Assembly (NCBI GenBank): GCA_946499885.1
Contig: CAMMTN010000012.1
Coordinates: 1-56,997, forward strand
DNA: 56,997 nucleotides
Reading direction: 5' to 3'
Origin: an uncultured Clostridium sp.
GTDB taxonomy: Bacteria > Bacillota > Clostridia > TANB77 > CAG-508
Shown here: one piece after another, positions 3,859 to 43,785 of the stretch
How the letters are laid out: every line of letters begins with the position of its first letter
Position numbering within the stretch: position 1 is the stretch's first letter
The notes under the pieces: generated by a model
What the model was told of the DNA's origin: nothing
What the model saw: the letters and a program-made list of their open reading frames with translations, nothing else
Database searches by the model: none
Translations under genes and position numbers: made by a program

Positions 3859-3979
3859 TTGAACTTTAGGGACGTTCCTTAAAGTTCAAAATTTAAAATA
3901 TAACTATTATTAAAATAATAGTTATATTATTTTCTTTATACTATAGTATTGAACTTTAAGGAACGTCCCTAAAGTTCAA
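3859..3979. repeat. REP-like element, family 1 copy A (serS-engB junction)
   Basis: Two 31-nt units in inverted orientation, 3859-3889 and 3949-3979. Each unit is itself nearly palindromic around a GGGACGTTCC core with flanks TTGAACTTT and AAAGTTCAA. The AT-rich spacer holds a further inverted repeat (ATATAACTATTATT/AATAATAGTTATAT). The right unit, read on the minus strand, forms the last codons (NFRDVP) and the TAA stop of serS. Confidence 0.85.
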
Positions 3980-5248
3980 TTTAGAAATTCCTCCCATATA
4001 AGGACGAAGAACTTCTGGAATATTAATACTTCCATCTTCATTATAGTTATTTTCTAAGAATGCAATAAGCATACGTGGTGGAGCAACAACAGTATTGTTT
4101 AAAGTATGTGCATAGTAATTTCCTTTTTCTCCTTTAATTCTGATTCCTAAACGTCTGGCTTGTGCATCTGTTAGGTTAGAACAACTTCCAACTTCAAAGT
4201 ATTTTTTCTGTCTTGGGCTCCATGCTTCTACATCACAGCTTTTAGCTTTTAAATCAGCTAAATCTCCACTACAACATTCTAAAGTACGAACTGGAATATC
4301 CATACTTCTAAATAATTCTACTGTATATGACCATAATTTATCATACCATTTCCAACTATCTTCTGGTTCGCATACTACTATCATTTCTTGCTTTTCGAAT
4401 TGATGAATACGATATACACCACGTTCTTCTATTCCATGAGCTCCCTTTTCTTTTCTAAAACATGGAGAATATGATGTCATTGTATATGGCATATCTGCTT
4501 TTTGCAAAATTTGTCCTTTAAATTTTCCTATCATAGAATGTTCACTAGTTCCTATTAAATATAAATCTTCACCTTCTATCTTATACATCATAGCATCCAT
4601 TTCTTCAAAACTCATAACTCCTGTTACGACATCACTACGAATCATATATGGAGGGATGCAATAAGTAAAACCTTTATTTATCATGAAATCTCTAGCATAA
4701 GAAAGTATTGCAGAATGAAGTCTTGCAACATCTCCCATTAAGTAATAGAATCCGTTTCCAGCAACTCTACGAGCAGAGTCTAAATCTAAACCATTTAAAC
4801 TTTCCATTATATCTGCATGGTAAGGTATTTCATAATCTGGAACAAATGGCTCACCAAATTTTTCTATTTCAACATTTTTACTATCATCTTCACCAATTGG
4901 AACAGATTCGTGAATTATATTTGGAATTTTCATCATTCTTTCTGTTATTGCAGATGCATATTCTGTTTCTAATTTTTCATTTTCTTCAAGTTCTTTATTT
5001 ATTTCTTGAACTTGTGCCTTTATAGTTTCAGCTTCATCCTTTTTTCCATTTTTCATTAAGTTTCCAATTTCAGAGCTTAATGAATTTCTTTTCATTCTAA
5101 GTTCATCACCTTTTAATTTTACATCTCTGTTTTTTTTGTCTAATTCTAAAACTTCATCAACTAAAACAAGTTTGTGATTTTGAAATTTTTTCTTAATGTT
5201 TTCTTTTACTAAATCTGGATTTTCTCTTAAAAATTTAATATCTATCAT
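3956..5248 (-). CDS. serS: Seryl-tRNA synthetase (430 aa)
   Basis: Class II synthetase charging tRNA-Ser. The N-terminal long coiled-coil arm (about residues 25-105) that grips the tRNA long arm is present. Motif 2 (CFRKEKGAHG and RIHQFEKQE) and motif 3 (NTVVAPPRMLIAFLE) are intact. The family normally ends shortly after LRPYMGG; here the protein continues ISKLNFRDVP, whose last six codons and stop come from the inserted repeat at 3949-3979. The start at 5248 has GAGGAGG upstream on the minus strand. A serine T-box leader (5276-5525) should control its expression by uncharged tRNA-Ser. Confidence 0.96.
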   Translation of the reverse strand: MIDIKFLRENPDLVKENIKKKFQNHKLVLVDEVLELDKKNRDVKLKGDELRMKRNSLSSEIGNLMKNGKKDEAETIKAQVQEINKELEENEKLETEYASAITERMMKIPNIIHESVPIGEDDSKNVEIEKFGEPFVPDYEIPYHADIMESLNGLDLDSARRVAGNGFYYLMGDVARLHSAILSYARDFMINKGFTYCIPPYMIRSDVVTGVMSFEEMDAMMYKIEGEDLYLIGTSEHSMIGKFKGQILQKADMPYTMTSYSPCFRKEKGAHGIEERGVYRIHQFEKQEMIVVCEPEDSWKWYDKLWSYTVELFRSMDIPVRTLECCSGDLADLKAKSCDVEAWSPRQKKYFEVGSCSNLTDAQARRLGIRIKGEKGNYYAHTLNNTVVAPPRMLIAFLENNYNEDGSINIPEVLRPYMGGISKLNFRDVP

Positions 5249-5275
5249 CCATATACCTCCTCTTCAAAGATGGTT

Positions 5276-5525
5276 TCAAATAAAACAAAACCCATATGCA
5301 AAAAGCATAAGGGCGAGATTTATTTCGCGGTACCACCTTAATTATTCAAAAATAAATTGAAAACTTTATAACGCTTATAACCTAGCATCAATCGGTCTTA
5401 TTTTCATAAGAAGCTTTTAAAAGTAGATTCATAAAACATTTTAAGCTATTTACACCAACCATAGCCTCTCTAAATAAAATTAATTTTATTACTATTCTTT
5501 TATCAAACGCTTTTTAAAACAATAA
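5276..5525 (-). promoter_or_regulatory. T-box leader of serS, serine specifier
   Basis: The minus strand carries the conserved T-box sequence AAGGTGGTACCGCG (about 5326-5340), followed by a terminator hairpin CCCTTATGC/GCATATGGG with T-run. Upstream is stem I with AGAGAGG. The specifier loop reads GAA-TCT-AC with TCT (serine) at 5425-5427. Uncharged tRNA-Ser would stabilise the antiterminator and permit serS transcription. Confidence 0.9.
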
Positions 5526-5654
5526 TATTTTACCACGAAAAAATAAAAATATCAATAAAAATTTACATATTAAGTACAAAATGGGTAAAAATAGTATAAA
5601 TAATTGTGATATAATATAGTGTAATTATAAAGTTTAATAAGATAGGGGTGGAAA

Positions 5655-6470
5655 ATGTTTATAGAATTTGTAAAATTTTTTATATTTTCACTATTAATTG
5701 TGATAATTTCAAAATATATATTAGTTAGGGTTTTAAGAAATTTAGCTCAAATATTGAATTTGAAGCCAAAAACAATTGGAAATATAGCAGGAATTGCAAC
5801 TTCTATTCCTGAATTATTAACAGTTTCTTTTTCAGCATTTACAGGTTTTATAGAGACAAGTATTTTTAATGTTTTAAGCTCTAATATAATAAATGTAGTG
5901 CAGTATTTAGTAGCAGTATTTATGAATAAAAATCAAAGTAAATTAAAAAATGGTGCAATAAAAACAGATTTACTTTTAGTAATTATAACAATAATAATAC
6001 CAGTTTTTATGATTATATTTAATATAGAAAGTAGCTTTTTCTTAGTTCCTATATTTATAATACTTCTTTTAGTATTTTACAAAATAAGTATAAATGCACA
6101 TAAACTATATTTAAAGCATGAGGAAAAAGCAGAAGAAAAAAATGAGAAAAACAAAAAGTCAGCTATTTTAAATGTTTTAGGAATTATTTTATCAGGAATT
6201 GCTTTATACTATGTTGGAAATTTATTAAGTAATACACTTGAAGTTTTAGCTTTAAGTTTGAATGTTCCTGAATCTGTAATTGGTATATTATTAGGAATAG
6301 TAACAAGTATTCCAGAGTTAATAACCTTTTTTGAATCTCAAAAGCATCATAAAGAAAAAGAAAATCATGAAGGAATTGTGGAAGCGACCAGTAATTTATT
6401 GTTTTCTAATTTTATGAATTTATTTATAATACAATCACTAGGTATAATAATATTTCTAATATTTGCATAA
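5655..6470 (+). CDS. Sodium/calcium exchanger-like membrane protein (CaCA family)
   Basis: An integral membrane protein of 271 aa with about eight to ten hydrophobic segments arranged in two halves. Each half carries the family alpha-repeat signature: GIATSIPELLTVSFSAF (around residues 48-65) followed by SSNIINV, and GIVTSIPELITFFESQ (around 208-225) followed by TSNLLFSNFMNL. The central loop is Lys/Glu-rich. These features match Ca2+:cation antiporters; the actual ion cannot be told from sequence. GGGGTGG precedes the ATG. TATAAT with an upstream TG lies at 5610-5615. Confidence 0.75.
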   Translation: MFIEFVKFFIFSLLIVIISKYILVRVLRNLAQILNLKPKTIGNIAGIATSIPELLTVSFSAFTGFIETSIFNVLSSNIINVVQYLVAVFMNKNQSKLKNGAIKTDLLLVIITIIIPVFMIIFNIESSFFLVPIFIILLLVFYKISINAHKLYLKHEEKAEEKNEKNKKSAILNVLGIILSGIALYYVGNLLSNTLEVLALSLNVPESVIGILLGIVTSIPELITFFESQKHHKEKENHEGIVEATSNLLFSNFMNLFIIQSLGIIIFLIFA

Positions 6471-6527
6471 AATGTAAATTAAAGGCATATAATAAAAGAA
6501 AGATTATATGTGAGGGAAGTGAAAGCT

Positions 6528-6803
6528 ATGTATGAAGCATATATTAGAGAGAATAAGATAGAGGACAAGTCAGAAGACGAAAAAAATTTAGAATTAATTG
6601 TTAGTATAATTAAAACAAAAAATGAGTTAGATTCAGCAAATAAAAATTTTGAATTTGCAGAAGATGGTTTAGTAGATTATTATTCATATCAGATTAAAGC
6701 AAATCAAACAAAGTTAGATTATTTAATGAAAAAAGCCCAAAGCAAAGGAATTGCACTAGATATGATAAATGAGATTTATATAAGAAAAAATAAAGCACAA
6801 TAA
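6528..6803 (+). CDS. DUF2508 (YaaL-like) protein
   Basis: A soluble helical protein of 91 aa. The core DGLVDYYSYQIKANQTKLDYLMKKAQSKG matches the DUF2508 family, found next to bofA in many sporulating Firmicutes (the yaaL-bofA pair in Bacillus). The bofA-like gene indeed follows here. ATG 6528 is preferred because GAGGG (6512-6516) lies upstream; an in-frame GTG at 6510 would lack a ribosome-binding site. Molecular function is unknown. Confidence 0.75.
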   Translation: MYEAYIRENKIEDKSEDEKNLELIVSIIKTKNELDSANKNFEFAEDGLVDYYSYQIKANQTKLDYLMKKAQSKGIALDMINEIYIRKNKAQ

Positions 6804-6903
6804 GTTATCAGGTATAAAGTGCCAAAAATAGAATAACAACATTCATATTTGTCCAAATTTAATCATACAAATAAGTAAGCATATTTAAATAGAGGTGATT
6901 AAT

Positions 6904-7233
6904 TTGGACTTTAATTCAGTTATAACTTTTTTAGCATGTATAATATTCATATTTATATTTGGAAAAATATTTATTTGGCCACTTAAAAACATTTTTAAAT
7001 TAATTATTAATTCGATTTTTGGTGGATTATGTATATATATTATCAATATAATAGGAGCAAGTTTTGGATTTCATATAGGACTAAATTTGTTAACATCAAT
7101 AATTGTAGGGTTACTGGGTTTACCAGGGGCAATATTACTTGTTATTTTAAAGATTATATTGCGGTTAAAAGATAAAAACTCCTCTAAAATAAAGAGGAGT
7201 TTTATATTATTCAACTGTTACCGATTTTGCTAA
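6904..7233 (+). CDS. BofA-like pro-sigma-K processing inhibitor family protein
   Basis: A small membrane protein (about 109 aa) with three hydrophobic segments, homologous in layout to BofA, which in Bacillus restrains SpoIVFB processing of pro-sigma-K. Typical features are KIFIWPLKNIFKLIINSIFGG and the GLPGAILLVIL segment near the C terminus. A TTG start (6904) is chosen because GAGGTG ends 6 nt upstream. The reading frame runs through the intrinsic terminator at 7175-7203 and overlaps the convergent glmS end by 27 nt, so the last 18 or so residues are atypical. Confidence 0.75.
   Translation: MDFNSVITFLACIIFIFIFGKIFIWPLKNIFKLIINSIFGGLCIYIINIIGASFGFHIGLNLLTSIIVGLLGLPGAILLVILKIILRLKDKNSSKIKRSFILFNCYRFC
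7175..7203. terminator. Bidirectional terminator between bofA-like gene and glmS
   Basis: AAAACTCCTCT and AGAGGAGTTTT form an 11-bp stem with A-run and T-run on opposite sides, suited to stopping transcription from both convergent genes. Confidence 0.75.
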
Positions 7234-9060
7234 ATTTCTTGGTTTATCTACATCTAATCCTTTAAATTTAGAAATATAGTATGAAAGTAATTGCATTGGT
7301 ATAATAGACAAAATTGGTGAAAGTAGCGGATTTGTTTCAGGTATATTTATTACATAATCAAAATGGCTATTCGTAAGTATTTGGTTTGTTATAACTAAAG
7401 TTTTAGCACCTCTTGTAATAACTTCTTGTAGATTACTAATCGATTTTTCTACTAAATTTGGATTTGTAATAATCCCTATTACAGTAACACCATTTTCTAT
7501 TAAAGCAATAGGTCCATGTTTTAATTCACCTGCTGCATAAGCTTCTGAGTGAATATATGAAATTTCCTTTAACTTTAAAGATCCCTCTAAGGCAACATTA
7601 TAATCCATGTTCCTTCCTAAGAAAAACATATCTTTTTCAGTATATATTTTTTGAGCAAACTCTTTTATTGGTTCTACATTATCTAATATTTTTTCTATTT
7701 TGGTTGGCAAATCAATCATATCAGTCTTTAGATTCAAAATTGTTTTTTCGTCTGAGCTTCCTAAAATTTCTGCAAAATACATTGCAAGGATAGCAATAAG
7801 TGCAACTTGAGATGTATATGCTTTAGTAGAAGCAACAGCAATTTCAGGACCAGCATGAGTATATATTGTATAATCTGCTTCTCTTGTAATAGAGCTTCCG
7901 ATTACATTAGATATAGCTAATGTTTTAGCTCCTTTTGACTTGGCAAGCTTTAGAGCGGCAATTGTATCAGCTGTTTCACCAGATTGGCTAATATATATAC
8001 ATAAAGTATGATTATCTACTATAGGGTCTCTATATCTAAATTCAGAAGCTATATCTACAGTTGCAGGTATTTTGCAAAGATTTTCTATTAAAGTTTTTCC
8101 AACTAATCCAGCATGCATTGCTGTTCCACAAGCTACTATATAGATGTTATTTATACTGCTTAAATATTCTTTAGAAATATCTATATCATCAAAAGAACAC
8201 TTTTCACCTAAACAAAATCTTGAACCTATTGTTTCTCTAATTGCAGTTGGTTGTTCAAAAATTTCTTTTAACATATAATCTTCAAATCCGCACTTATCAG
8301 CAGCATTTGCATCCCACTCAATATTTTTAATTGGTTTGCTATGTTCTATTAAAGAACTATCATAGAATTTTACTGTATCTTTAGAAATTACAGCAAATTC
8401 ATTATCATCTAAAAGATAAAAATCTTTTGTATATTTTAAAACTGCTGGAATATCAGATGCAATATAATTTTCTCCATTTCCTTTTCCTATTACTAAAGGA
8501 CTATCTTTTCTAACTACAATAACTTCATTAGGGCATATAGGGGAAATAGCTTCAATTGCATAACTTCCCTTTAAATCATTTACTGCAGATTTTACAGAAC
8601 CTAAAAACTTTTCTAAATTATCTTTTAAAATAGAAACTGGCCCATTTGTAAAATAGTAGTGAATTAAATTTGGAATAACTTCAGTATCTGTTTGAGATAA
8701 GAAAGTATATCCTTTTGAACTCAAAAATTCCTTAAGTTCCAAATAATTTTCAATAATTCCATTATGAACTACAGCAAAAGTATTACTATTGTCCATATGA
8801 GGATGAGAATTTTCCTTAGAAGGTTTTCCATGAGTAGCCCATCTTGTATGAGCAATACCAACTGTACCTACCAACTCATTTATTCCTTCTAAATTTTCTA
8901 AATTTTTAACTCTACCTTTATCTTTCATTACTTTTATTGCATCATTTTCAATAGTTGCAATTCCTGCTGAATCATATCCTCTGTATTCTAGGCTTAATAA
9001 TCCATCAATTAAAATTGGTGTAGCTTTTTTATTACCAATGTAACCTACAATTCCGCACAT
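7207..9060 (-). CDS. glmS: Glutamine-fructose-6-phosphate aminotransferase (617 aa)
   Basis: Makes glucosamine-6-phosphate from fructose-6-phosphate and glutamine, the entry step to peptidoglycan amino sugars. The N terminus MCGIVGYIG exposes the catalytic Cys after Met removal. The glutaminase domain (1-240, HTRWATHG) is followed by two SIS domains (about 290-430 and 460-600) with the SQSGETADT and sugar-binding loops. The C terminus LAKSVTVE is the family hallmark. The glmS ribozyme in its 5' leader (9095-9247) indicates feedback by glucosamine-6-phosphate. Confidence 0.97.
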   Translation of the reverse strand: MCGIVGYIGNKKATPILIDGLLSLEYRGYDSAGIATIENDAIKVMKDKGRVKNLENLEGINELVGTVGIAHTRWATHGKPSKENSHPHMDNSNTFAVVHNGIIENYLELKEFLSSKGYTFLSQTDTEVIPNLIHYYFTNGPVSILKDNLEKFLGSVKSAVNDLKGSYAIEAISPICPNEVIVVRKDSPLVIGKGNGENYIASDIPAVLKYTKDFYLLDDNEFAVISKDTVKFYDSSLIEHSKPIKNIEWDANAADKCGFEDYMLKEIFEQPTAIRETIGSRFCLGEKCSFDDIDISKEYLSSINNIYIVACGTAMHAGLVGKTLIENLCKIPATVDIASEFRYRDPIVDNHTLCIYISQSGETADTIAALKLAKSKGAKTLAISNVIGSSITREADYTIYTHAGPEIAVASTKAYTSQVALIAILAMYFAEILGSSDEKTILNLKTDMIDLPTKIEKILDNVEPIKEFAQKIYTEKDMFFLGRNMDYNVALEGSLKLKEISYIHSEAYAAGELKHGPIALIENGVTVIGIITNPNLVEKSISNLQEVITRGAKTLVITNQILTNSHFDYVINIPETNPLLSPILSIIPMQLLSYYISKFKGLDVDKPRNLAKSVTVE

Positions 9061-9094
9061 AAAAATAACCTCCTTAAAATTTAAGAAAGCATTA

Positions 9095-9247
9095 CAAACA
9101 AAGATTACTCTATTAGCTTTGTTTACTAATATTACTATTAGGCTTTAACTAATATTTATGGCAGTAATCTAATGCCAAGAAACCATCCGCCGAATTTTTC
9201 GATAAGTTTCTTCCTCGTCAACGTATATATTACGTCCAGGCGCTTTA
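9095..9247 (-). ncRNA. glmS ribozyme/riboswitch
   Basis: The minus strand contains the conserved core: AGCGCCTGGAC at the cleavage end (9234-9244), GTTGACGAGGA, TTCGGCGGATGG, and the P3/P4-type helices before the glmS ribosome-binding site. Cleavage is expected between 9244 and 9243, 5' of GCGCC. Known function: self-cleavage with glucosamine-6-phosphate as cofactor, destabilising glmS mRNA. Confidence 0.95.
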
Positions 9248-9335
9248 AAAAATATAGTTTGTATTTGTAAAGCTTTTCTTTTATGAATAGTATATTACTA
9301 TAAAAAATAAATTGTGTCAAATTTTTTTAAAATAC

Positions 9336-9364
9336 TTGTAAAAAGTATAAATTTATGCTAAAAT
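9336..9364 (+). promoter_or_regulatory. Promoter of rpsF-ssb-rpsR
   Basis: TTGTAA (9336-9341) and TAAAAT (9359-9364) are 17 nt apart. The 5' leader then runs for about 80 nt to rpsF. Confidence 0.65.
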
Positions 9365-9374
9365 ATTACTGTTA

Positions 9375-9396
9375 AAAAATAGCATTTGCTATTTTT
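9375..9396 (+). promoter_or_regulatory. Terminator-like hairpin in the rpsF leader
   Basis: AAAAATAGCA pairs with TGCTATTTTT across a very short loop, immediately after the promoter and before rpsF. It resembles an attenuator; autoregulatory S6:S18 leaders are known upstream of rpsF, but I do not see enough consensus to name it as one. Confidence 0.4.
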
Positions 9397-9452
9397 CCTT
9401 ACTTATGACATAAAAGTTCATAGGTTATATATCCATAAGGAGGTGAAGAGTA

Positions 9453-9731
9453 ATGAATAAATACGAAAGTGTTGTCATTATTAATCCAAATGTTGAGGAA
9501 ACAGCTTTAAAAGCATTAATAGAAAGATTTTCAACATTAATTAATACTGATGGAAAAGTAGAGCAAGTTAATGAATTAGGCAAAAAGAGATTAGCTTATG
9601 AAATAAAGAAAAACAAAGAAGGATACTATGTAGTATATGACTTTGAAGCTAAGCCAAGCTTAATTGCAGAACTTGAAAGAAACTACAGAATTACTGATGA
9701 AGTAATTAAATTTATAGTAGTAAAAAAATAA
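9453..9731 (+). CDS. rpsF: 30S ribosomal protein S6
   Basis: A 92-aa protein of the small ribosomal subunit platform that partners S18. MNKYESVVIINPNVEE at the N terminus, KKRLAYEIKKNKEGYYVVYDF and the C-terminal TDEVIKFIVVKK are typical of bacterial S6. The ribosome-binding site AAGGAGGTG is strong. First gene of the conserved rpsF-ssb-rpsR operon. Confidence 0.96.
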   Translation: MNKYESVVIINPNVEETALKALIERFSTLINTDGKVEQVNELGKKRLAYEIKKNKEGYYVVYDFEAKPSLIAELERNYRITDEVIKFIVVKK

Positions 9732-9779
9732 TATTTACTATAGGGGGCCTTTAAAAAAGAAAGGTAAAAGGTGTAAAAA

Positions 9780-10208
9780 ATGAACAAAGTAATTTTGATG
9801 GGAAGATTAACAAGAGATCCAGAAGTAAGATACACTCAAACAAGTAATACATTAGTTGCTTCATTTAGTTTAGCAGTTAATAGAAGATTTGTAAGACAAG
9901 GTGAAGAAAGACAAGCAGACTTTATAAACATAGTTGCTTGGGGCAAAACAGGAGAGTTTTGCAGTAAATATTTTAAAAAAGGTCAACAAGTAGGAATAAT
10001 AGGAAGAATTCAAACAAGAACATGGGATGATGACCAAGGTCAAAAACATTATGTTACAGAAGTTATAGCAGAAGAAACATATTTTGCAGATAGTAAAAGA
10101 GATGGCGATAGCGGAGTTTCAAGCTTTGATGCAACATTTGGTGCAATGCCAAATATGGGAGAAAGTTCTGATTTTGAAATATCTTCAGGAGATGATTTAC
10201 CATTCTAA
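9780..10208 (+). CDS. ssb: Single-stranded DNA-binding protein
   Basis: The OB-fold core (about residues 1-105) begins MNKVILMGRLTRDPEVRYTQ and contains FSLAVNRRF, DFINIVAWGKTGEFCSKYFKKGQ and GRIQTRTW, all standard for bacterial SSB. The C terminus ends SSGDDLPF, the acidic tip that recruits replication and repair partners. The linker is short (142 aa total). It lies between rpsF and rpsR as in most Firmicutes. Confidence 0.96.
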   Translation: MNKVILMGRLTRDPEVRYTQTSNTLVASFSLAVNRRFVRQGEERQADFINIVAWGKTGEFCSKYFKKGQQVGIIGRIQTRTWDDDQGQKHYVTEVIAEETYFADSKRDGDSGVSSFDATFGAMPNMGESSDFEISSGDDLPF

Positions 10209-10268
10209 ATAAAATTTTAGAAAACTACTTAAACCTTATATTTAGTCAGAAGATAGGGGGTAAGAATA

Positions 10269-10553
10269 ATGGCTGACAATAAGAAAAATAAAAGAAATAA
10301 TAGAAATAACAATGCTGATAATGATTACAATCCAAAATTTAGAAAAATAAGAAAAAAAGTATGTCCTTTATGTGCAAATAAAGACATGGTATTAGATTAT
10401 AAAAATGCAGAACAAATAAGAAAATTTGTTAATGATAAAGGAAAAATACTTCCAAGAAGAGCAACAGGAGCTTGTGCAAAACATCAAAGAGATATAACAT
10501 TAGCAGTAAAAAGAGCAAGACAAATAGCAGTATTACCATATACAGCTGAATAA
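10269..10553 (+). CDS. rpsR: 30S ribosomal protein S18
   Basis: A 94-aa ribosomal protein with an Asn/Lys-rich N-terminal extension. The core CPLCANKDMVLDYKNAEQIRKF and GKILPRRATGACAKHQRDITLAVKRARQIA is diagnostic. The Cys residues of CPLC plus ACAKH suggest the zinc-binding variant of S18. It is the last gene of the operon and is followed by a strong terminator. Confidence 0.96.
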   Translation: MADNKKNKRNNRNNNADNDYNPKFRKIRKKVCPLCANKDMVLDYKNAEQIRKFVNDKGKILPRRATGACAKHQRDITLAVKRARQIAVLPYTAE

Positions 10554-11572: not shown

Positions 11573-12475
11573 ATGAACAAATACATAAAATATATAATAG
11601 TAGCAGTTATATTTTTAGTTATTATTGTAACATTAGTAATTTTAAATATAAATAAAAAAAATAAAGATAAAGAAAATGATGCAAAAACAAAAATAGTTAC
11701 ATCATTTTATCCAATGTATATTATAGCAGAGAATCTATTAGACGGTGCAAATAATACCGAGCTTATTAATATGGCAGATTTAAATGTAGGCTGTTTGCAT
11801 GATTATACATTAACTACAGAAGATATGAAAAAAGTAGAAAATGCAGATATTTTTATTGTAAACGGACTTGGAATGGAAAACTTTTTAGATAAAGTTATAA
11901 GTTCAAATGAAGATATGTATATAATAGATTCAAGTACAAATATACAAAATTTAATAAAAGAAGAAAATGAAACAAATCCACATATTTGGACAAGTATAGA
12001 TAATTATATTTTACAGGTAAAAAATATTTCAAAGGAATTACAAAATAAAGATACTTCAAATGCACAAATATATAAGGAAAATGAAGAAAAATACATAGAA
12101 AAATTAGAAAACTTAAAAGAAGAATATTTAGAAGAATTAAAAAAATTAGAAGGACAAAAAGCAATAATATTAAATGAATCATTTGAATATCTTGCTCAAG
12201 AATTAAAAATAGAAGCGACAACAATAAAAACAGACCATGAAGAAAGTACTTTATCAGCAGAAACATTAAAGAATATAATAGATAAAGCAAAAAAAGAAAA
12301 TATTAAAATAATAATAATTGGCAAAAATGATAATAAATCAAATGCAGAAATAATAGCAAATGAAACAGGAGCAGAAGTATATGAATTAAATTCTGGACTA
12401 ACAGGAAGTTTAGATAAAGATGCATATATAAAAGCTATAGAGGAAAATCTTTGTCGCGTTTGGGACAGGCCCTAA
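11573..12475 (+). CDS. Metal ABC transporter substrate-binding protein (ZnuA/AdcA-like)
   Basis: Binds Zn2+ or Mn2+ outside the membrane and delivers it to the permease encoded downstream. One N-terminal transmembrane helix (residues 7-27) anchors it; there is no lipobox Cys. The SBP_bac_9 fold is shown by VTSFYPMYIIAENL, LHDYTLT (metal His), NGLGMENFLDK, ETNPHIWTS (metal His) and the long charged helix of residues 160-195. The position usually holding the third His reads LNESFEYL, so metal choice is uncertain. The final residues LCRVWDRP and the TAA stop are encoded by the palindrome at 12450-12520. Confidence 0.82.
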   Translation: MNKYIKYIIVAVIFLVIIVTLVILNINKKNKDKENDAKTKIVTSFYPMYIIAENLLDGANNTELINMADLNVGCLHDYTLTTEDMKKVENADIFIVNGLGMENFLDKVISSNEDMYIIDSSTNIQNLIKEENETNPHIWTSIDNYILQVKNISKELQNKDTSNAQIYKENEEKYIEKLENLKEEYLEELKKLEGQKAIILNESFEYLAQELKIEATTIKTDHEESTLSAETLKNIIDKAKKENIKIIIIGKNDNKSNAEIIANETGAEVYELNSGLTGSLDKDAYIKAIEENLCRVWDRP

Positions 12476-12520
12476 TGCGACAAAAAGTGTCGCATTAGGG
12501 CCTGTCCCAAACGCGACAAA
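12450..12520. repeat. REP-like element, family 2 (znuA-znuC): perfect 33-bp hairpin
   Basis: Arms 12450-12482 and 12488-12520 are perfect reverse complements with a 5-nt loop. The arm begins TTTGTCGCGTTTGGGACAGG and ends CCCTAATGCGACA. It supplies the stop of the binding-protein gene and ends directly at the ribosome-binding site GGAGGC of the ATPase gene. Confidence 0.9.
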
Positions 12521-12531
12521 GGAGGCAAAGT

Positions 12532-14168: not shown

Positions 14169-15173
14169 ATGGAAAAGAAAAAATTTTTAACAGGGGATAG
14201 ACCAACAGGAAGGTTACATATAGGGCATTATTTTGGCTCACTTGCAAATAGAGTAGAAATGCAGAATTCTGGTGAATATGACCCACATATTTTAATTGCA
14301 GATGTGCAAGCATTAACAGATAATTTTAATAATCCAGAAAAGGTTAGAAAGAACATAAGAGAAGTTATGCTCGATTATTTATCAATAGGTATAGATCCAA
14401 ATAAAACTACAATTATAATACAATCAATGGTGCCAGAAATAGCGGAATTAACAGTTTTTTATTCTAATTTGGTTACAATTGCTCGCTTGGAAAGAAATCC
14501 TACAGTAAAAACAGAAATTGCACAAAAGAAAGAATTATTTGGAGAAAGTGTTACTTATGGATTTTTAGGTTATCCAGTAAGCCAAGCAGCCGATATAACA
14601 GCTTTTGAAGGAGCATATGTTCCAGTAGGAGAGGATCAACTTCCTTTAATAGAACAATGTAGAGAGATTGTAAGAAAATTTAATAGTATATATGGTGAAG
14701 TTTTAACAGAGCCAGAAGCGGTATTATCTTCTGCAAAAAGAATAAAAGGATTAGATGGAAATGAGAAGATGGGTAAATCCCTAGGAAATGCTATATATCT
14801 TTCAGATACACCGGAAGAAATAACTAAAAAAGTTATGAGCGCAGTAACAGATCCTAATAGAATAAGAAAAGATGATAAAGGAAATCCAGATGTATGTATG
14901 GTTTCATATTATCATAATTTATTTACAGATAAAGATGAATGTAAAAAAATATGCGAAGAATGTAAAAAAGGTGTAAGAGGTTGTGTTGCATGTAAAAAAG
15001 AACTTTCAAATAATATTATTGGATTTTTAGAACCAATGAGAGAAAAAAGAAAGTACTATGAAGAAAGACCAGAATTAGTAAATAAATTATTAATTGAAGG
15101 AACTGAAAAAGGAAGAAAAGTTGCAAAAGAGACAATGAAGAAAGTAAAGAAGGCAATGAGATTAGATTATTTT

Positions 15174-15197
<24 letters not shown>
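14169..15197 (+). CDS. trpS: Tryptophanyl-tRNA synthetase
   Basis: Class Ic synthetase charging tRNA-Trp. TGDRPTGRLHIGHYFGSL holds the HIGH motif near residue 18; GNEKMGKSLGNAI holds the KMSKS-like signature near 195. Family marks PVGEDQLPLIEQCREI and DPNRIRKDD are present. The CKKICEECKKGVRGCVACKKEL block is a Cys-rich segment seen in some clostridial TrpRS. The natural end KAMRLDYF is extended by VNFRDVP, whose codons and stop come from the inserted repeat at 15174-15306. No T-box precedes it. Confidence 0.95.
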
Positions 15198-16591
<1,394 letters not shown>

Positions 16592-24973: not shown

Positions 24974-26860
<1,887 letters not shown>

Positions 26861-26872
26861 GATTCCAAGATA

Positions 26873-26970
26873 ATTGGTTTTGGCGTTGTTGCATAAATTT
26901 TAAATCCAATCAACGTACAAAGAGTACGCCTCATGAATTTAAAATTTATGCGCCTAGCCAAAACGCAATT
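26873..26970. repeat. Palindromic element R2, copy 1 (dnaK-dnaJ junction)
   Basis: Nested inverted repeats: TTTTGGC/GCCAAAA (26878-26884, 26957-26963), then GCATAAATTTTAAAT/ATTTAAAATTTATGC (15 bp, perfect, 26891-26905 with 26937-26951), and a central hairpin CGTAC-aaaga-GTACG. The conserved signature GGCGTTGTT ... CAACGTAC ... GTACGCCTC ... GCCTAGCC recurs in the fatty-acid cluster. Confidence 0.85.
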
Positions 26971-27012
26971 CTATTGAAATCCTTATAAGTAATAAAAACA
27001 ATTAGTATTAAA

Positions 27013-34258: not shown

Positions 34259-34384
34259 GTTATATGAAATTTTTTAGAAAAAACAATTAAAAAAATATAA
34301 AAAAGTGATTTTTTTATTTGAAATTATGAAAATCTATGATATAATAATAACACTTAAAAATAAAACCATTGAAAAAGCAAAGTA

Positions 34385-34633
34385 AGTTTATAAAAAATAT
34401 TTAAAGAGAGATAGGACAGAGGCTGAGAGCCTATTAATATAATAAACTGAAATTTCACTTTTGAGGTTCTTTTTTGAAAAGTAATATGGATTTTAACTAT
34501 ATATAATAGTAGAAAAAGACGGGTAGCCCGTTATAGCAAAAAGAGGTTAATTATTTAATTAATAAATTTAGGTGGTACCACGGTATAGAAAGCTAATCGT
34601 CCTATAAAGTATTAGGAAGATTAGCTTTTTTCA
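34385..34633 (+). promoter_or_regulatory. T-box leader of pheST, phenylalanine specifier
   Basis: Contains AGAGAG (about 34405) and GACAGAGGCTGAGAGCC. The specifier region is GAAATTTCACTTTTGAGG with TTC (Phe) at 34454-34456. The T-box TTAGGTGGTACCACGG lies near 34569-34584. The terminator AAAGCTAATC/GATTAGCTTTTTT ends near 34632. Uncharged tRNA-Phe should promote read-through into pheS. Confidence 0.9.
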
Positions 34634-38148: not shown

Positions 38149-38150
38149 TA

Positions 38151-38255
38151 TGCCAATGGGGACGTACACATTTGGCATAGTTCCTAAAATAGTATAAAAT
38201 TTAGTTTAGAAAATAAATTCTATAACGGTGCCAAATGTGTACGTCCCCATTGGCA
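38151..38255. repeat. REP-like element, family 3 (pheT-capA-like junction)
   Basis: Inverted pair of 27-nt units, 38151-38177 and 38229-38255. The unit has ends TGCCAA/TTGGCA and a core GGGGACGTACACA. It begins 2 nt after the pheT stop and ends before the next ribosome-binding site. Confidence 0.85.
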
Positions 38256-38278
38256 CAGGTTAGAAAGGGAATATGTGT

Positions 38279-39433
38279 ATGGCAAGAAACAGAAGAAATG
38301 TAAGAAGAATAAATAGTATAAAAGATGTAATAACTACAAAATCATTTTTAATAATAGTTAGCATTTTATTATTAGTTATTTTTGCAAGTATTGGACTTAA
38401 TGAGTATAGAAGATACCAAGATAAAGAAGTTATGGCAAAAGAAAGAGAAGAATTAAATAAACAAACTCAAGCTATGTTTGCAAGTTTAAATGATAAAATT
38501 GCTCAAACGAATCAAAATATATCAGAATCTGATAGTATAATAAAAATGTCTGCAGTAGGTGATATTTTATGTAGTGAAGCAATGATTGAAGATGCGTATA
38601 ATAGTGAAAAAAATACATATGATTTTTCACATATGTTTGGAAATGTATCAGATTATATAGATGATGCAGATATTATAATGGGAACAATGGAGACAGGAAT
38701 AGTATCTTCAAAATACAATGACAAAAGAGCACCTATAGAATTTGCAAAAGCGGTAAAAGATTCTGGAGTAAATCTTGTTACAGTAGCACATAACCATAGT
38801 TTAGATAATGGGGTGGATGGACTTCAAGAAACAAAAGAAAACTTACAAGAGATAGGATTTGATGTTGTAGGTGAAAAAATAGAAAATTCAAATGCAGTTA
38901 TTATTAAAGAAGTGAAAGATACAAAAATAGCTTTTTTAACTTATACTTGTTTTATGGATAATAAAGAACAAAGGACAAATGAAGAACTAAATTGTGTGAA
39001 TATGTATAGTCAGGAGCAAGCAAAGTCAGATATAGAATATGCTAAAGAAGAAGGAGCAAAGTACATTTGCGTAATAATACATTGGGGAGATGCAATATCT
39101 AGCAATGTAAATGATGAGCAAAAGCAAATAGCACAATTTTTAGTAGATAATGGAGTAGATATGATACTTGGGGCACATCCATCGGTAATGCAAGATATGG
39201 AAGTAGTACAAAATGAAGAAGGAAAAAATGTTTTTATAGCATATTCGATAGGTACATATATTTCTACATTATCTGCCGAAGAAACTAGAACAGAATTAGT
39301 TTTAAACATACAACTTGCCAAAAGTGGAAAAAGTGGGGAAATATACTTAAATAAAGTTGATTATACTGAGCTAAATATGGTAGATAATGGAGAAAATGCA
39401 GAAAATAGATTTGTATTAAAAGCAGGAAATTAA
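38279..39433 (+). CDS. CapA-family (poly-gamma-glutamate biosynthesis-like) protein
   Basis: 384 aa. An N-terminal transmembrane helix (about 20-42) and coiled segment precede a calcineurin-like metallophosphoesterase-type domain of the CapA/PGA_cap family: MSAVGDILCSEAM, ADIIMGTMETGI, VTVAHNHSLDNGVDGL, VIIHWGD and GAHPSVMQDMEV. Relatives are needed for capsule poly-glutamate or have related surface roles; no capBC homologues occur in the window, so the substrate is unknown. ATG 38279 has an 8-nt spacing from GGGA; ATG 38273 is too close. Confidence 0.8.
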   Translation: MARNRRNVRRINSIKDVITTKSFLIIVSILLLVIFASIGLNEYRRYQDKEVMAKEREELNKQTQAMFASLNDKIAQTNQNISESDSIIKMSAVGDILCSEAMIEDAYNSEKNTYDFSHMFGNVSDYIDDADIIMGTMETGIVSSKYNDKRAPIEFAKAVKDSGVNLVTVAHNHSLDNGVDGLQETKENLQEIGFDVVGEKIENSNAVIIKEVKDTKIAFLTYTCFMDNKEQRTNEELNCVNMYSQEQAKSDIEYAKEEGAKYICVIIHWGDAISSNVNDEQKQIAQFLVDNGVDMILGAHPSVMQDMEVVQNEEGKNVFIAYSIGTYISTLSAEETRTELVLNIQLAKSGKSGEIYLNKVDYTELNMVDNGENAENRFVLKAGN

Positions 39434-39436
39434 AAA

Positions 39437-39538
39437 TTAAGCCAAAGGGGACGTACACATTTGGCTTAATAATAGATTAATTGTTATAAAAAAATATGCT
39501 TAAAAATAAGCCAAATGTGTACGTCCCCTTTGGCTTAA
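39437..39538. repeat. REP-like element, family 3 (capA-like-rimO junction)
   Basis: Inverted units 39437-39469 and 39508-39538. Ends are TTAAGCC/GGCTTAA and the core is GGGGACGTACACA, as in the previous copy but with different end sequence. The left unit starts 3 nt after the stop codon; the right one runs close to the rimO ribosome-binding site. Confidence 0.85.
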
Positions 39539-39568
39539 TTTTTAATTTTACAGGAAAGGAATAGATTT

Positions 39569-40876
39569 ATGAAAGTAGGATTTGTGTCATTAGGATGTAG
39601 TAAAAATTTAGTAGATACTGAAAAAACAATAGGAATTTTTAAGTCAAACGAATATGAAATTGTAAATAATCCAAAGGAAGCGGAAATTATTGTAATAAAT
39701 ACTTGTGGATTAATTGAATCTGCAAAAGAAGAAGCTATAAATACTATTTTAGAAATGGCAGAATACAAAAAGAAAAAATGTAAGTATCTAATTGCCATGG
39801 GTTGCCTAGTAGAAAGGTACAAAGATGAACTAGAAAAAGCACTTCCAGAGGTTGATTTGTTTATTAAATACAGTGAATATAATTCTCTATGGGAACAAAT
39901 AGAAAATTTACTTGGAGATAATAAAAATAAAGAAAAGTATAAAGAATTTGACAAAGTGGAAGAAAGAGTAATTTCAACTGGAGATAATTTTGCATATTTA
40001 AAAATTGCAGATGGATGCAGTAATAGGTGTACATATTGTGCTATACCATACATAAGAGGACCACAAATTAGTAGAAAAATGGAAGATATAATAAAAGAAG
40101 CTGAAAAATTAGTAAAAGAAGGATATAAGGAGCTTATACTAATAGCACAAGATACTACAAAATATGGAACAGATATATATGGAAAGCCAAGATTAGCAGA
40201 GTTGTTACAAGAACTATGTAAATTAAAAAAGTTGCATTGGATAAGATTTCTATATGCATATCCTGAAACTATTGATGATGAACTAATAAAAGTTGTAAAA
40301 GAAAATGAAAAAATATGTAAATATTTTGATATTCCAATTCAACATATTTCTGATACAGTTCTAAAAAGAATGAATAGACAAAGTAATGGCCAAACTATAA
40401 GAAATTTAATACAAAAATTAAGAAAAGAAATTCCTGAAGTAGTTATAAGAACTACAGTTATGGTAGGTTTTCCAGGAGAGACTAAAAAAGATTTTGAAGA
40501 ATTATATAATTTTTTAAAGGAAGCAAGATTTGATAAATTAGGTTGTTTTGCATATTCTAAAGAAGATGGCACACCAGCAGCTAGAATAAAAGAACAGATT
40601 CATCCAATGACTAAGAAAAGTAGATACAACAAAATAATGAGTCTGCAACAAGAAATTTCTAAAGAAAACCTACAAAAGCAAATAGGAAAAGATATAGAAA
40701 TTTTAGTAGAAGAAAAGTCTTTTGATGGAAAAACATATGTAGGAAGAACATATATGGATGTACCAGAAATTGATGGAATAACATATATAAATACAGACAA
40801 AGAATTACAAATAAGTGAATTCACTATAGGAAAGATAATTGATGTAAGTAATTATGATTTGATATGTAGAAGATAA
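39569..40876 (+). CDS. rimO: Ribosomal protein S12 methylthiotransferase RimO
   Basis: 435-aa radical-SAM enzyme that methylthiolates Asp of ribosomal protein S12. The N-terminal UPF0004 domain has SLGCSKNLVDTE, NTCGLIESAKEEAI and AMGCLVERY (three cluster Cys). The radical SAM motif is CSNRCTYC within KIADGCSNRCTYCAIPYIRGPQISR, which points to RimO rather than MiaB. The C-terminal TRAM domain is present (VGRTYMDVPEIDGITYI). AGGAAAGG precedes ATG. Confidence 0.95.
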   Translation: MKVGFVSLGCSKNLVDTEKTIGIFKSNEYEIVNNPKEAEIIVINTCGLIESAKEEAINTILEMAEYKKKKCKYLIAMGCLVERYKDELEKALPEVDLFIKYSEYNSLWEQIENLLGDNKNKEKYKEFDKVEERVISTGDNFAYLKIADGCSNRCTYCAIPYIRGPQISRKMEDIIKEAEKLVKEGYKELILIAQDTTKYGTDIYGKPRLAELLQELCKLKKLHWIRFLYAYPETIDDELIKVVKENEKICKYFDIPIQHISDTVLKRMNRQSNGQTIRNLIQKLRKEIPEVVIRTTVMVGFPGETKKDFEELYNFLKEARFDKLGCFAYSKEDGTPAARIKEQIHPMTKKSRYNKIMSLQQEISKENLQKQIGKDIEILVEEKSFDGKTYVGRTYMDVPEIDGITYINTDKELQISEFTIGKIIDVSNYDLICRR

Positions 40877-40919
40877 AAGAACTTTAAACAAGAGTAAATG
40901 TAAAAAAATCATAATTCAT

Positions 40920-40957
40920 AAAAGGGAGAAGACTATAAAAGATCTTCTCCCTTTTTG
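40920..40957 (+). terminator. Terminator after rimO
   Basis: AAAGGGAGAAGA pairs with TCTTCTCCCTTTTT across a 10-nt loop. Confidence 0.85.
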
Positions 40958-40982
40958 AATGACAAGAATATGCTTAAAAAAA

Positions 40983-41359
40983 TTATTTCTCTATTTTTAA
41001 CTCTTTCCTTAAAGCCCTTTGCAGTAATTGAGAAAAGTTAATACCCCGATCTTCAGCAACGGCATTTAACCACATGGGAATTGTTAGAGTTTTTTTATGG
41101 ATAATTGCTGACACTTAAACAAATCTACTTCAATAAGAGAAATAAACTGATTTTTCTCTAGAGAAATATGAGAATAAGGTATTGTTGGTGTCGGACGATG
41201 ATCGGAATTGGTTAAAAACTCAAATAAATGAACTTGCGCAGTCTGAAATGCTTCTTCTAAGGATGAAGCCGATAATTCACACTCGAAATCGAGAAATTTA
41301 ACTTAATAAGAATCATCTAAATGTTTCGTAAAAATTGCTGGATAGAAGCAAATATTCAT
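40983..41359 (-). pseudogene. Degraded HicB-type antitoxin gene
   Basis: Read on the minus strand, ATG at 41359 opens MNICFYPAIFTKHLDDSY and meets an in-frame TAA. The next part reads VKFLDFECELSASSLEEAFQ. One base is missing in an A7 run near 41091-41097, after which the frame KTLTIPMWLNAVAEDRGINF followed by SQLLQRALRKELKIEK resumes. The N-terminal partial RNase H-like fold and the C-terminal ribbon-helix-helix-like ending are typical of HicB. No intact HicA toxin frame is visible beside it. Confidence 0.65.
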
Positions 41360-41600
41360 AAAGTACACCTCAACAATTAAATTTTAGTAGTGAATAATGA
41401 ACTTATAGATTATTGTCATTCGAATAAATTGTTCTTTGTTTAAATAAGCAAGGTAATCAAATCCTTTCTTAAAAATAGATTATCAAATCAAATATGAATT
41501 TGACATAAAAAGAATAAAATTCAAATATATAATAGCATGAATTTACATAAAAGTCAACATAAAGCCATTCGACATAATCATAAATAATATCAATAAAAAA
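41360..41600. other. AT-rich intergenic stretch, no gene seen
   Basis: Between the hicB remnant and the fabH control region. I see no credible coding frame, RNA gene or strong repeat here. Confidence 0.5.
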
Positions 41601-41650
41601 TCGACTGATTGGATAAATATATACAAAAAGAATGAAGGATATGGTATAAT
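41601..41650 (+). promoter_or_regulatory. fabH control region: TCGACTGATTGG motif and TATAAT
   Basis: TCGACTGATTGG (41601-41612) lies exactly 32 nt before an extended -10, TATGGTATAAT (TATAAT 41645-41650). The same arrangement recurs before fabD. There is no good -35, so an activator bound near -50 is plausible. Confidence 0.6.
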
Positions 41651-41683
41651 TCCATAAAGAATAATAATTAGAAAGGAAAACAA

Positions 41684-42610
41684 ATGAATTCAATAAAATT
41701 AGTAGCAAGTGGTAGGTATTTACCAAATAATTGTATAGAAAATAGCTACCTAAATAATAAATTTGCTTTAAGTGATGAGTGGATATATAAAAGAACAGGT
41801 ATACAAAAAAGATATTGGGCAGAGAGTGAATCAATGCAGGAATTAGCAATTAAATCAGTAGAAAATATGCTAGAAAGCACAAATATAAATATTCAAGATA
41901 TAGGGCTTATAATTACCGCATCTACTAGATTTGAGGATAGTATGCCAGGAATTTCTTTTGGAATACAAAAGGAATTCAACATTAATGATTGCATGTGTAT
42001 GGATTTATTAGCAGGATGTAGCGGATACATAAATGCGATAGATATAGCGAAAAAATATATTGAAATGGATGAAATTAAATATGCATTAATAATAGGCGTG
42101 GAAAAATTATCTAAGTACATAAATAAGGATGATATAAATACGGCTATTCTTCTAGGAGATGGAGCAGGAGCTACATTAATAGGAAAATCAGAAAATAAAA
42201 CATATGCAAAAAATATAGAGAGTATTGGACAAGATGGAGATATTTTAACTTGCAAGGAAAATGAAAAAATATATATGAATGGAAAGAAAATATACAAATT
42301 TGCAACAGCCAGAGTAGCACAAAATATAAATGAATTGTTGAAAAAAGAAAAATTAGATATAGCCGAGGTTAAATATATAGTTCCACATCAATCAAACTTG
42401 AGAATTTTAACAAGCATTGCTGAGAAAATAGGTGCAAAAGAAGAACAAATGTATATAAATATGGCAAATATAGGTAATACATTTAATGCGAGTATTCCGA
42501 TTGCTTTAAATGAGATGATAAGAAATAAATTATTAAAGGAAAATGATAAAATAGTCTTAGTAGGATATGGTGGGGGACTTAATTTAGGAAGTATTTTGAT
42601 TGAAATATAA
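41684..42610 (+). CDS. fabH: 3-oxoacyl-ACP synthase III (FabH)
   Basis: Starts fatty-acid synthesis by condensing acyl-CoA with malonyl-ACP. 308 aa. The catalytic triad is visible: Cys in DLLAGCSGYINA, His in VPHQSNLRI and Asn in NIGNTFNASIPIAL. Gly-rich C-terminal VGYGGGLNLGSILIEI. AGAAAGGA ribosome-binding region. It starts the fatty-acid cluster but is followed by its own 152-nt gap with a second promoter before fabD. Confidence 0.95.
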   Translation: MNSIKLVASGRYLPNNCIENSYLNNKFALSDEWIYKRTGIQKRYWAESESMQELAIKSVENMLESTNINIQDIGLIITASTRFEDSMPGISFGIQKEFNINDCMCMDLLAGCSGYINAIDIAKKYIEMDEIKYALIIGVEKLSKYINKDDINTAILLGDGAGATLIGKSENKTYAKNIESIGQDGDILTCKENEKIYMNGKKIYKFATARVAQNINELLKKEKLDIAEVKYIVPHQSNLRILTSIAEKIGAKEEQMYINMANIGNTFNASIPIALNEMIRNKLLKENDKIVLVGYGGGLNLGSILIEI

Positions 42611-42676
42611 GCAAAATATAATATAAAATGTAATTTAATAATATTATGAGATAGTGTAAAAAGACATATTATTTTT

Positions 42677-42726
42677 TCGACCAATTGGTTAAAACTAATG
42701 CAAAAAAATAATATTTATGGTATAAT
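42677..42726 (+). promoter_or_regulatory. fabD control region: TCGACCAATTGG motif and TATAAT
   Basis: TCGACCAATTGG (42677-42688), containing the perfect palindrome ACCAATTGGT (42680-42689), lies exactly 32 nt before TATAAT (42721-42726), which is preceded by TATGG as at fabH. Shared spacing indicates common control of fabH and the fabD operon. Confidence 0.65.
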
Positions 42727-42789
42727 TTCAAACAAGAGTGAAATTTACATTAAATGTAAATATTGATTAGAACGAAAGGAAGAAAAACC

Positions 42790-43737
42790 ATGAAAATAGC
42801 ATATATATTTCCAGGTCAAGGAACACAAATTGTTGGAATGGGAAAAGATTTATATGAAAAATATGATGAAGTAAAGAATGTATATAAAAGAGTAGATGAG
42901 GTACTAGGAGAAAGTGTTGAAAATATAACATATAATATTAGTCAAGAAGAATTAAATGAAACACAAAACACACAAATTGCTATATATACAATGGGCATGG
43001 CAATATTAGAGATTTTAAATAAAAAGGGAATTAAGCCAGATGCTTTAGCAGGATTAAGCTTGGGTGAATATAGTGCACTTACATGTGGTAATGCAATTTC
43101 ATTAGAAGAAGGAGCTAAGATTGTAAGAAAACGTGGGAAATTTATGCAAGAATTAGCACCAAAAGGAAATTGGTCAATGGCAGCTATTATTGGATTAGAA
43201 GATGAACAAGTAGAAGAAGTTTGTTCTAAAGTGGAAGACGGATTTGTAAGAGCTGTAAACTATAATTGCCCTGGTCAAGTAGTGGTATCAGGAGAAAAAG
43301 ATGCTGTATTAAAAACTATGGAAATAGCAAAAGAAATGGGGGCAAGAAAAGCTATAGAACTTAAAACAAGCGGACCATTTCATACAGAGAAACTAGAAGA
43401 AGTATCAAATGCATTAAGAAAAGAATTAGAAACTGTAGAATTTAATAAAATTAAAATACCAGTTATAAAAAATATAAATGGAGAACCATATGCTGATAAA
43501 GATAATATGGTAGATATTTTAGCAAAGCACGTAATGAGCCCAGTAAAATTTAGAAAATCAATAGAAACAATGTTAAGTTTGGGAATAGATACATTTGTAG
43601 AAATAGGACCAGGAAAAACATTATCTGGATTTGTAAAAAAAGTATGTAAAGAAAAAGATATAGAAGCAAATGTACTTAATATAGAAAATGTAGAAACACT
43701 TGAGAATGCTTTGGTGAACTTTAGGGACGTTCCTTAA
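42790..43737 (+). CDS. fabD: Malonyl-CoA:ACP transacylase (FabD)
   Basis: 315 aa. Transfers malonyl from CoA to ACP. The nucleophile motif is GLSLGEYSAL, the substrate Arg lies in KRGKFMQE, the second His in KTSGPFHTEKL, and FPGQGTQIVGMG opens the protein. ATG 42790 has AAAGGA upstream; the frame is open further upstream without a start signal. The C terminus ENALVNFRDVP carries the tail and stop supplied by the repeat at 43714-43785; the natural family end would be close to VETLENAL. Confidence 0.95.
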   Translation: MKIAYIFPGQGTQIVGMGKDLYEKYDEVKNVYKRVDEVLGESVENITYNISQEELNETQNTQIAIYTMGMAILEILNKKGIKPDALAGLSLGEYSALTCGNAISLEEGAKIVRKRGKFMQELAPKGNWSMAAIIGLEDEQVEEVCSKVEDGFVRAVNYNCPGQVVVSGEKDAVLKTMEIAKEMGARKAIELKTSGPFHTEKLEEVSNALRKELETVEFNKIKIPVIKNINGEPYADKDNMVDILAKHVMSPVKFRKSIETMLSLGIDTFVEIGPGKTLSGFVKKVCKEKDIEANVLNIENVETLENALVNFRDVP

Positions 43738-43785
43738 AGTTCAAAAAATAAATAATGAACTTTAAGGAACGTCCCTAAAGTTCAA
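43714..43785. repeat. REP-like element, family 1 copy C (fabD-fabG junction)
   Basis: Shortest copy: units 43715-43743 and 43756-43784 in inverted orientation with only a 12-nt spacer. The left unit encodes NFRDVP-stop of fabD. The right unit abuts the fabG ribosome-binding site (AAAGGAGG). Confidence 0.88.

Follow-up and report, generated by a model that had tools for sequence, protein, structure and literature searches.

In the TIRYT or TIRtron systems of Di Nocera et al. (2013, PMC3733652), a Y1 transposase gene is flanked by inverted repeats. Some of these repeats are self-complementary, in some species they are also scattered singly or in pairs, and they may overlap the 3' end of the transposase gene. 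Termini of repetitive extragenic palindromic (REP) sequences often supply the stop codons of open reading frames (ORFs) and lie less than 20 bp from gene ends (PMC3733652, section 15). In the REP-associated Y1 transposases (RAYT, or TnpA-REP), the motif NP(L/V)(R/K)xG adjoins the Tyr (PMC2817692). Quentin et al. (PMC6006769) define a subclass 2.1 with a C-terminal DnaA-like or other helix-turn-helix, and report no REP-like sequences near its genes. Here we describe a palindromic element, termed family A, in a stretch of 56,997 nucleotides (the window) of an uncultured Clostridium sp. (GCA_946499885.1, contig CAMMTN010000012.1). The genes serS, trpS and fabD all take their stop from a 29-31 nt palindrome, which gives their products the same C-terminal peptide, NFRDVP. 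The element is very likely a miniature mobile doublet relying on a RAYT/TIRYT-type Y1/HUH transposase that is encoded between two family-A units.

The family-A element at three gene ends

The family-A unit is a 29-31 nt near-palindrome (TGAACTTTAGGGACGTTCCTTAAAGTTCA) with the core GGGACGTTCC. Each element in the window is an inverted pair, with an AT-rich spacer between two inverted copies of the 29-nt near-palindrome. All three sites proved to be as the first-pass annotation had described them, with the NFRDVP tails coming from the palindromic unit:

3860..3978: family-A inverted doublet (units 3860-3888 and 3950-3978), between serS (3956-5248, minus strand) and an engB-like GTPase gene (3260-3847, minus strand)
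3956..3976, minus strand: unit-derived NFRDVP codons and TAA stop of serS, from the ORF reading; C-terminus ...KLNFRDVP, then stop
15175..15305: family-A inverted doublet (units 15175-15203 and 15277-15305, one mismatch), between trpS (14169-15197) and an obgE-like gene (15320-16591)
15177..15197, plus strand: unit-derived NFRDVP codons and TAA stop of trpS; C-terminus ...FVNFRDVP, then stop
43715..43784: family-A inverted doublet with a 12-nt spacer (units 43715-43743 and 43756-43784), between fabD (42763-43737) and a fabG-like gene (43798-44538)
43717..43737, plus strand: unit-derived NFRDVP codons and TAA stop of fabD; C-terminus ...LVNFRDVP, then stop

The core, allowing at most one mismatch, occurs six times in the window against 0.10 expected, and none of 100 shuffles reaches six. 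Pfam matches of the three ORFs (seryl-tRNA synthetase at 3956-5248, minus strand; class I (W and Y) synthetase at 14169-15197, plus strand; acyltransferase at 42763-43737, plus strand) fit their predicted identities as serS, trpS and fabD. Folded as single-stranded DNA, one unit reaches -8.4 kcal/mol and the serS doublet forms one long hairpin at -40 kcal/mol (z -14.6). The trpS and fabD doublets reach -37.6 kcal/mol (z -12.5) and -31.9 kcal/mol (z -14.6), respectively.

Direct reading confirmed that the unit carries TGA, TAG and TAA in three frames. Read from outside, the frames give TGA at once, GAA CTT TAG (adding EL) or AAC TTT AGG GAC GTT CCT TAA (adding NFRDVP), so that a stop occurs in each frame within the first 23 nt. 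Both outer ends of the element read alike because the element is symmetric. An intact unit thus ends any entering gene after 0, 2 or 6 extra residues, as there is a stop in every frame from either side.

Copies across the genome

The recurrence of the unit, as first proposed, extends to the whole source genome (1.67 Mb, 52 contigs). With at most three mismatches allowed, the outer 18 nt of the unit match 20 times in forward and 25 times in reverse orientation; a few of the three-mismatch matches appear unrelated, and the reversed control pattern gives none. We annotated 22 family-A elements, comprising 19 inverted doublets and three single units. An intact GGGACGTTC seed occurs in 42 units, of which 24 are free of mismatches; on average there are 0.79 mismatches per 29 nt. 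The outer ends are TGAAC in nearly all units.

Family-A elements are strongly associated with the 3' ends of genes. A neighbouring ORF finishes inside ten of the 22 elements, and in eight more a facing ORF end lies at most 20 nt away. These 18 elements are far above expectation, since by a rough null only 7.2% of the window's intergenic bases are as close as this to a facing ORF end (binomial 1.6e-17). The association holds among the 12 elements not entered by an ORF, eight of which have a facing ORF end no more than 20 nt away (2.9e-7). These positions agree with the earlier suggestion that insertions are tolerated at gene ends.

Transposases linked to the units

The source genome encodes two Y1_Tnp genes, both over the Pfam cut-off (PF01797). 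Each lies between units of one palindrome family:

Contig C1, 114339-114674: RAYT-A (256 aa), between family-A units at C1:113922 and 114861, which are 0.94 kb apart
Contig C7, 23985-24314: RAYT-B, between family-B units at C7:23837 and 24743

RAYT-A contains the motifs NHAHF (HUH) and YIHNNP (Tyr), and judging from the motif the Tyr of YIHNNP would be the catalytic residue. Its C-terminus reads ...RILHEL followed by the stop, with EL and the stop coming from the unit. Beside the Tyr, the RAYT-A sequence NNPVKAKM has the NPVK of the RAYT motif without the G. Scores of the two transposases with the IS200 model (16.1 and 19.5) are far under their scores with NF047646, the NCBIfam equivalog model for REP-associated transposases. 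Matches to a C-terminal helix-turn-helix at residues 221-256 are weak and all below cut-offs. A sequence search for a solved structure returned two weak unrelated matches and nothing else.

The distribution of the unit follows that of the transposase. Across 56 genomes including the source, the family-A unit with at most two mismatches has 17 + 20 matches in the source and 9 + 8 in a second genome, G015. Five other genomes have one or two matches and 49 have none. The source (100%) and G015 (64%) are alone among the 56 genomes in having a transposase with more than 60% identity to RAYT-A, with the next at 52%. The G015 gene is bracketed by that genome's own family-A units and likewise stops inside a unit. 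We also sampled at least 111 stretches holding the unit, from 12 named metagenome-assembled genome (MAG) assemblies. Among the MAG stretches listed, four ORFs on Clostridia contigs have HUH and Tyr motifs; all four have family-A cores on both sides and three stop in a unit. The prediction of a RAYT-like Y1 transposase thus has a concrete counterpart in the gene found between two family-A units, with G015 and the four MAG ORFs arranged likewise.

A wider survey of 30 loci yielded 24 that read as RAYT ORFs, the source included. Of these, 21 are bracketed by an inverted pair scoring at least 20, each with a GGGAC core, and three of the 21 are near copies. The bracketing GGGAC-core repeats often have different arms from gene to gene, and the sister families at L315, L319 and L325-L328 carry GGGGACAG. 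The right-hand repeat overlaps the end of the RAYT gene in 11 of the 21 bracketed cases, with one (L316) unclear. These sequence features mark a RAYT-type system with a separate palindrome for each transposase.

Recurrence, bracketing of the transposase gene and co-occurrence in the source and G015 give good support to the proposal that the element is mobile and RAYT-linked. By analogy with known TnpA-REP proteins, the transposase would cut and rejoin the DNA in its folded, single-stranded form. Insertions would survive mainly near a stop codon because little is lost there. An ORF entering an intact unit stops within a few residues, and the shared tail is the passive outcome of the frame. The all-frame stop probably limits damage. 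It also terminates the transposase gene itself, which takes its final codons and stop from the unit.

Several points weigh against this account. No movement of a family-A element was observed. Both transposases remain below the NF047646 cut-off of 80 bits (58.5 and 69.4). In the survey, six loci were left out as the wrong ORF had been picked, and three of the 24 RAYT ORFs have no bracket. The positional null was taken from the window alone, with ORFs of at least 100 aa compared to at least 60 aa for the elements, and genes are longest-ORF calls rather than curated models. Four of the 22 elements lie more than 20 nt from any facing ORF end and three are single units. Finally, spacers vary between copies with no clear consensus, which is not what simple copying of one miniature element predicts.

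Reading frames and the shared tail

The first-pass annotation held that all copies use the longest frame, which is true of the three in the window (3/3, or 1 in 27 by chance) and fails for the source genome. Counting ORFs of at least 80 residues, ten of 41 unit ends in the source genome are entered, with three ending at TGA, four in NFRDVP and three in EL. Among the MAG stretches listed, 54 of 209 unit ends are entered (21 TGA, 11 in the NFRDVP frame, 22 EL). The 11 NFRDVP-frame cases comprise seven exact tails, three NFGDVP and one running on. Pooled, 64 of 250 unit ends are entered by an ORF, with 24 at TGA, 15 in the NFRDVP frame and 25 at EL (p = 0.24); the 64 ORFs may include spurious genes, one or more of them is the transposase ORF, and an insertion inherited from a common ancestor was possibly counted repeatedly. 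Of the three frames, NFRDVP has the fewest cases, though not significantly fewer, and the counts therefore indicate no preference for the NFRDVP tail over the 64 cases.

The orthologues of serS, trpS and fabD show what the element replaced. We compared up to 30 genomes of the genus, which gave 29 non-source loci and 28 readable C-termini per gene, including a few paralogues or partial genes. The NFRDVP tail is absent from all 28 readable C-termini of each gene. Neither outcome that the first-pass annotation had named as refuting it, the tail in relatives lacking the repeat or a unit with no further copies in the genome, was encountered. Relatives end in ...LDYFEV, ...LDYFENM and similar for trpS, mostly in ...KL(E/V/I)PKK or similar for serS, and in ...ETLENALxxLK and similar for fabD, each followed by the stop. 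For each enzyme, the price of the element was a few variable terminal residues.

The peptide could in principle be a selected portable C-terminal tag, such as a degron or docking peptide, delivered by the element. Exact NFRDVP ends in four source-genome ORFs and at least seven in MAG stretches, with NFGDVP in three more, are what such a tag would show. Yet EL and tail-less ends are at least as common and the NFRDVP frame is not favoured. The three carriers in the window are housekeeping enzymes with no relation to one another, and their native C-terminal residues differ from relative to relative. We consider a selected tag extremely improbable and reject it on frame use. The claim that the element adds a portable peptide as a feature of its own is not supported: the frame accounts for 15 of 64 cases, and the tail replaces a few variable residues. 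The shared NFRDVP tail looks like a harmless by-product of the reading frame and not a selected peptide.

In several relatives, another GGGAC-core palindrome lies directly after serS (L251-L279), so that more than one family seems to favour this gene end for insertion.

Related palindrome families

The window holds further palindromes, compared here with G016, a related genome of the genus, as well as other repeats and structured RNAs:

38152..38254: family-B doublet (GCCAATGGGGACGTACACATTTGGC); in G016 this place is occupied by a B' doublet, which differs in its arms
39427..39548: family-B doublet, flanks inverted; the site is empty in G016
50760..50849: family-B doublet; in G016 another GGGGAC palindrome takes its place
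12449..12521: family-C related palindrome (GTCGCGTTTGGGACAGGCCC...); the G016 counterpart at this place is a variant altered on both arms
26859-26983, 46479-46580, 44541-44586 and 45956-46001: other repeats with TTGGCGTTGTT or CGTCTTGCGTTGTT
5306-5516, minus strand, and 34360-34607, plus strand: two T-box leaders, one directly upstream of serS
9101-9255, minus strand: glmS ribozyme

A stretch bearing TTGGCGTTGTT is also found 3' of trpS in a few relatives. The family-B core is GGGGACGTAC, and the sister unit B' (GCGCAATTGGGGACGTACACCTTTTGCGC) has 24 forward and 21 reverse matches in G016. The triplet before GCC is TAA, TGA or TAG in 29 of 36 B unit ends. Aligning the source locus holding RAYT-B (L041) with G016 (L384) leaves a gap of about 0.7 kb, with most of RAYT-B apparently missing from G016, and yet that genome has many B' units.

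One clean empty site was found, at 39427-39548, where G016 (L341) reads ...AAAGCAGGAAAGGAATAG without the element. In this single case, CAGGAAA flanks the B doublet on both sides, like a 7-bp target duplication. Target duplication is not known for IS200-type elements. Among the B doublets used for flank analysis (loci L049-L078 and L041), the outer flanks are mutually inverted repeats of about 8-14 nt (score at least 7) in 10 of 17, and the mean is reached by none of 2000 re-pairings. Inverted outer flanks are rare in family A (2/19 in the source, 1/30 elsewhere), where the means are reached by 11 and 1186 of 2000, respectively.

We asked whether the all-frame stop causes more gene entry by family A than by family B. 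Entry in frames other than the edge stop is 7/41 for A against 1/36 for B (p = 0.06), which is suggestive at most. With all frames included, entry is 10/41 against 4/36 (p = 0.15), and three B edge cases are zero distances.

The doublets might instead be non-mobile host regulatory hairpins, acting as terminators or mRNA stabilisers and kept by selection at gene ends. Very stable folds, the predominance of gene 3' ends and the A-rich and T-rich outer flanks on some B doublets would suit such a role. Selection on hairpins does not readily account for near-identical sequence at unrelated genes, for a unit unmatched in 49 of 56 genomes, for a transposase gene bracketed by units or for an empty orthologous site of a B doublet. 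In addition, no Rfam family exceeds the threshold at the window's elements. We judge non-mobile regulatory hairpins to be very unlikely, and a mobile doublet remains the preferred reading; regulatory use may have been acquired later.

Possible turnover at inherited sites

Within the genus, the proteins of serS (99% identity), fabD (84%) and the PGA_cap gene (92%) place G016 closest to the source, though trpS does not, and syntenic stretches of the two genomes are 85-98% identical. Thirty of the 45 B' matches in G016 came with flanks and correspond to 18 distinct sites. Twelve of these map by both flanks to element-holding source loci, one maps by one flank, and five match no source locus fetched; the latter may be empty in the source genome because no match was found among the loci fetched. 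At nine aligned B sites, the B units of the source coincide or almost coincide in position with B' in G016; most of the core is retained and the arms differ. G016 has a single unit at two of these sites, and two of the nine are mixed, with one source unit of B' type at L060 and one G016 unit with a B-like arm at L385. At L049, a B'-like half arm (TGCGCAATT) lies directly outside the source B unit. At serS and at C7:42031, a family-A doublet in the source corresponds to B' in G016.

Six source sites of family A were also compared. One (C17:36425) is shared with G015, two with G016, one with G009 and one with G010; for the remaining site, no unit could be recognised in G015. The sites shared with G016 hold one decayed copy and one single unit with one change, and the units of G009 and G010 are changed. 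At these four sites, the source units have zero or one change, with the relatives' copies decayed in three and a one-change single unit in the fourth. RAYT-A was not found in the available sequence of G016, G009 or G010 in the 56-genome comparison. The few changes in the source units, set against the decay in most of the relatives' copies, suggest renewal in place in genomes that have the transposase. At C17:36425, the source units have three changes each, which goes against simple renewal. Conserved spacers failed as proof of orthology: six of seven pairs of orthologous doublets could be compared, and their spacers were no more alike than shuffles, apart from a weak signal at serS, where 26 of 1000 shuffles were as good.

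Resident palindromes may be rewritten in place at inherited sites by the transposase, which would put new units into or on top of older ones, with family identity sweeping the genome in concert and the serS tail arising via a swap and not by insertion into a bare site. We regard this as a possible but rather doubtful explanation. It would fit the exchange of B for B' at the nine aligned sites, the A to B' differences at serS and C7:42031, and the 12 of 18 G016 sites anchored by both flanks. The half arm at L049, if old, and the whole B'-type unit at L060 would be leftovers, and family-A units would stay fresh in the source and decay in relatives without RAYT-A. Independent, repeated insertion at favoured sites could, however, yield the same picture, orthologous spacers are not clearly alike, and the changes at C17:36425 run counter to it. 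The comparison also concerns mainly one species pair and element-holding source sites only, with five of 18 G016 sites unmatched and G016 and G009 being 72 and 78% complete.

If Y1 transposases of this branch rewrite resident doublets besides adding new ones, arms would change together, copies would decay where the transposase is lost, and sites could switch family. Gene ends would become long-term docking sites where the protein tail follows the ruling palindrome family, and a single swap would have turned an EPKK-like end of serS into NFRDVP. Gene conversion was reportedly put forward by Higgins et al. in 1988 as the force keeping REP copies alike. Rewriting in place would provide a natural test of this idea, with orthologous sites in two related species differing by family. 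Among open-licence papers, we found none that treats repetitive extragenic palindromic sequences together with both concerted evolution and gene conversion. Of the unsettled readings of these data, the apparent renewal and exchange of resident palindromes is the most interesting and deserves study.

Comparison with known systems

The observation made in the first-pass annotation is confirmed, mobility and the RAYT link are well supported, the peptide tag is not supported, and rewriting in place is unproven. A tiny mobile sequence can persist in a gene-dense genome by ending genes cheaply in any frame. Unrelated proteins can therefore share a last peptide without sharing a function, which is a trap for annotation. 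That REP ends provide stop codons is already in print (PMC3733652). We found no description in the open-licence literature of a unit with all-frame stops that also ends the transposase gene.

The closest described kind is TIRYT/TIRtron and subclass 2.1 of Quentin et al. by anatomy, and the REPINs by doublet form. As in TIRYT/TIRtron (PMC3733652), inverted repeats with further copies in the genome flank a transposase gene and can overlap its 3' end, and a GGGG-led motif is shared in part. Compared to the GGGG[AT][CG]A[CG] (GGGGWSAS) motif given there, the GGG(G)ACGT of families A and B differs in the last letters, and the sister sequence GGGGACAG fits. The present system differs from TIRYT/TIRtron in that a stop occurs in every frame, the hosts are uncultured Clostridia, and one genome holds two separate families. 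With REPIN-RAYT systems (Bertels and Rainey 2011, PMC3116915), family A shares hairpin-forming inverted doublets (19 of 22 elements) with conserved ends, less conserved spacers and a tie to a RAYT. Unlike those systems as presented in that paper, it has no GTAG tetranucleotide at the foot and so is not a classical GTAG-tagged REP. It also numbers about 20 doublets rather than hundreds, and its transposase belongs to another branch with a weakly helix-turn-helix-like C-terminal end. The GTAG REPs outlined in PMC3733652 have one stop at the end, whereas the unit here has one in each frame within its opening nucleotides. Rickettsia palindromic elements, which are named in the same paper, similarly add coding sequence to unrelated proteins. 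They sit within ORFs that stay open, whereas an intact family-A unit ends the protein.

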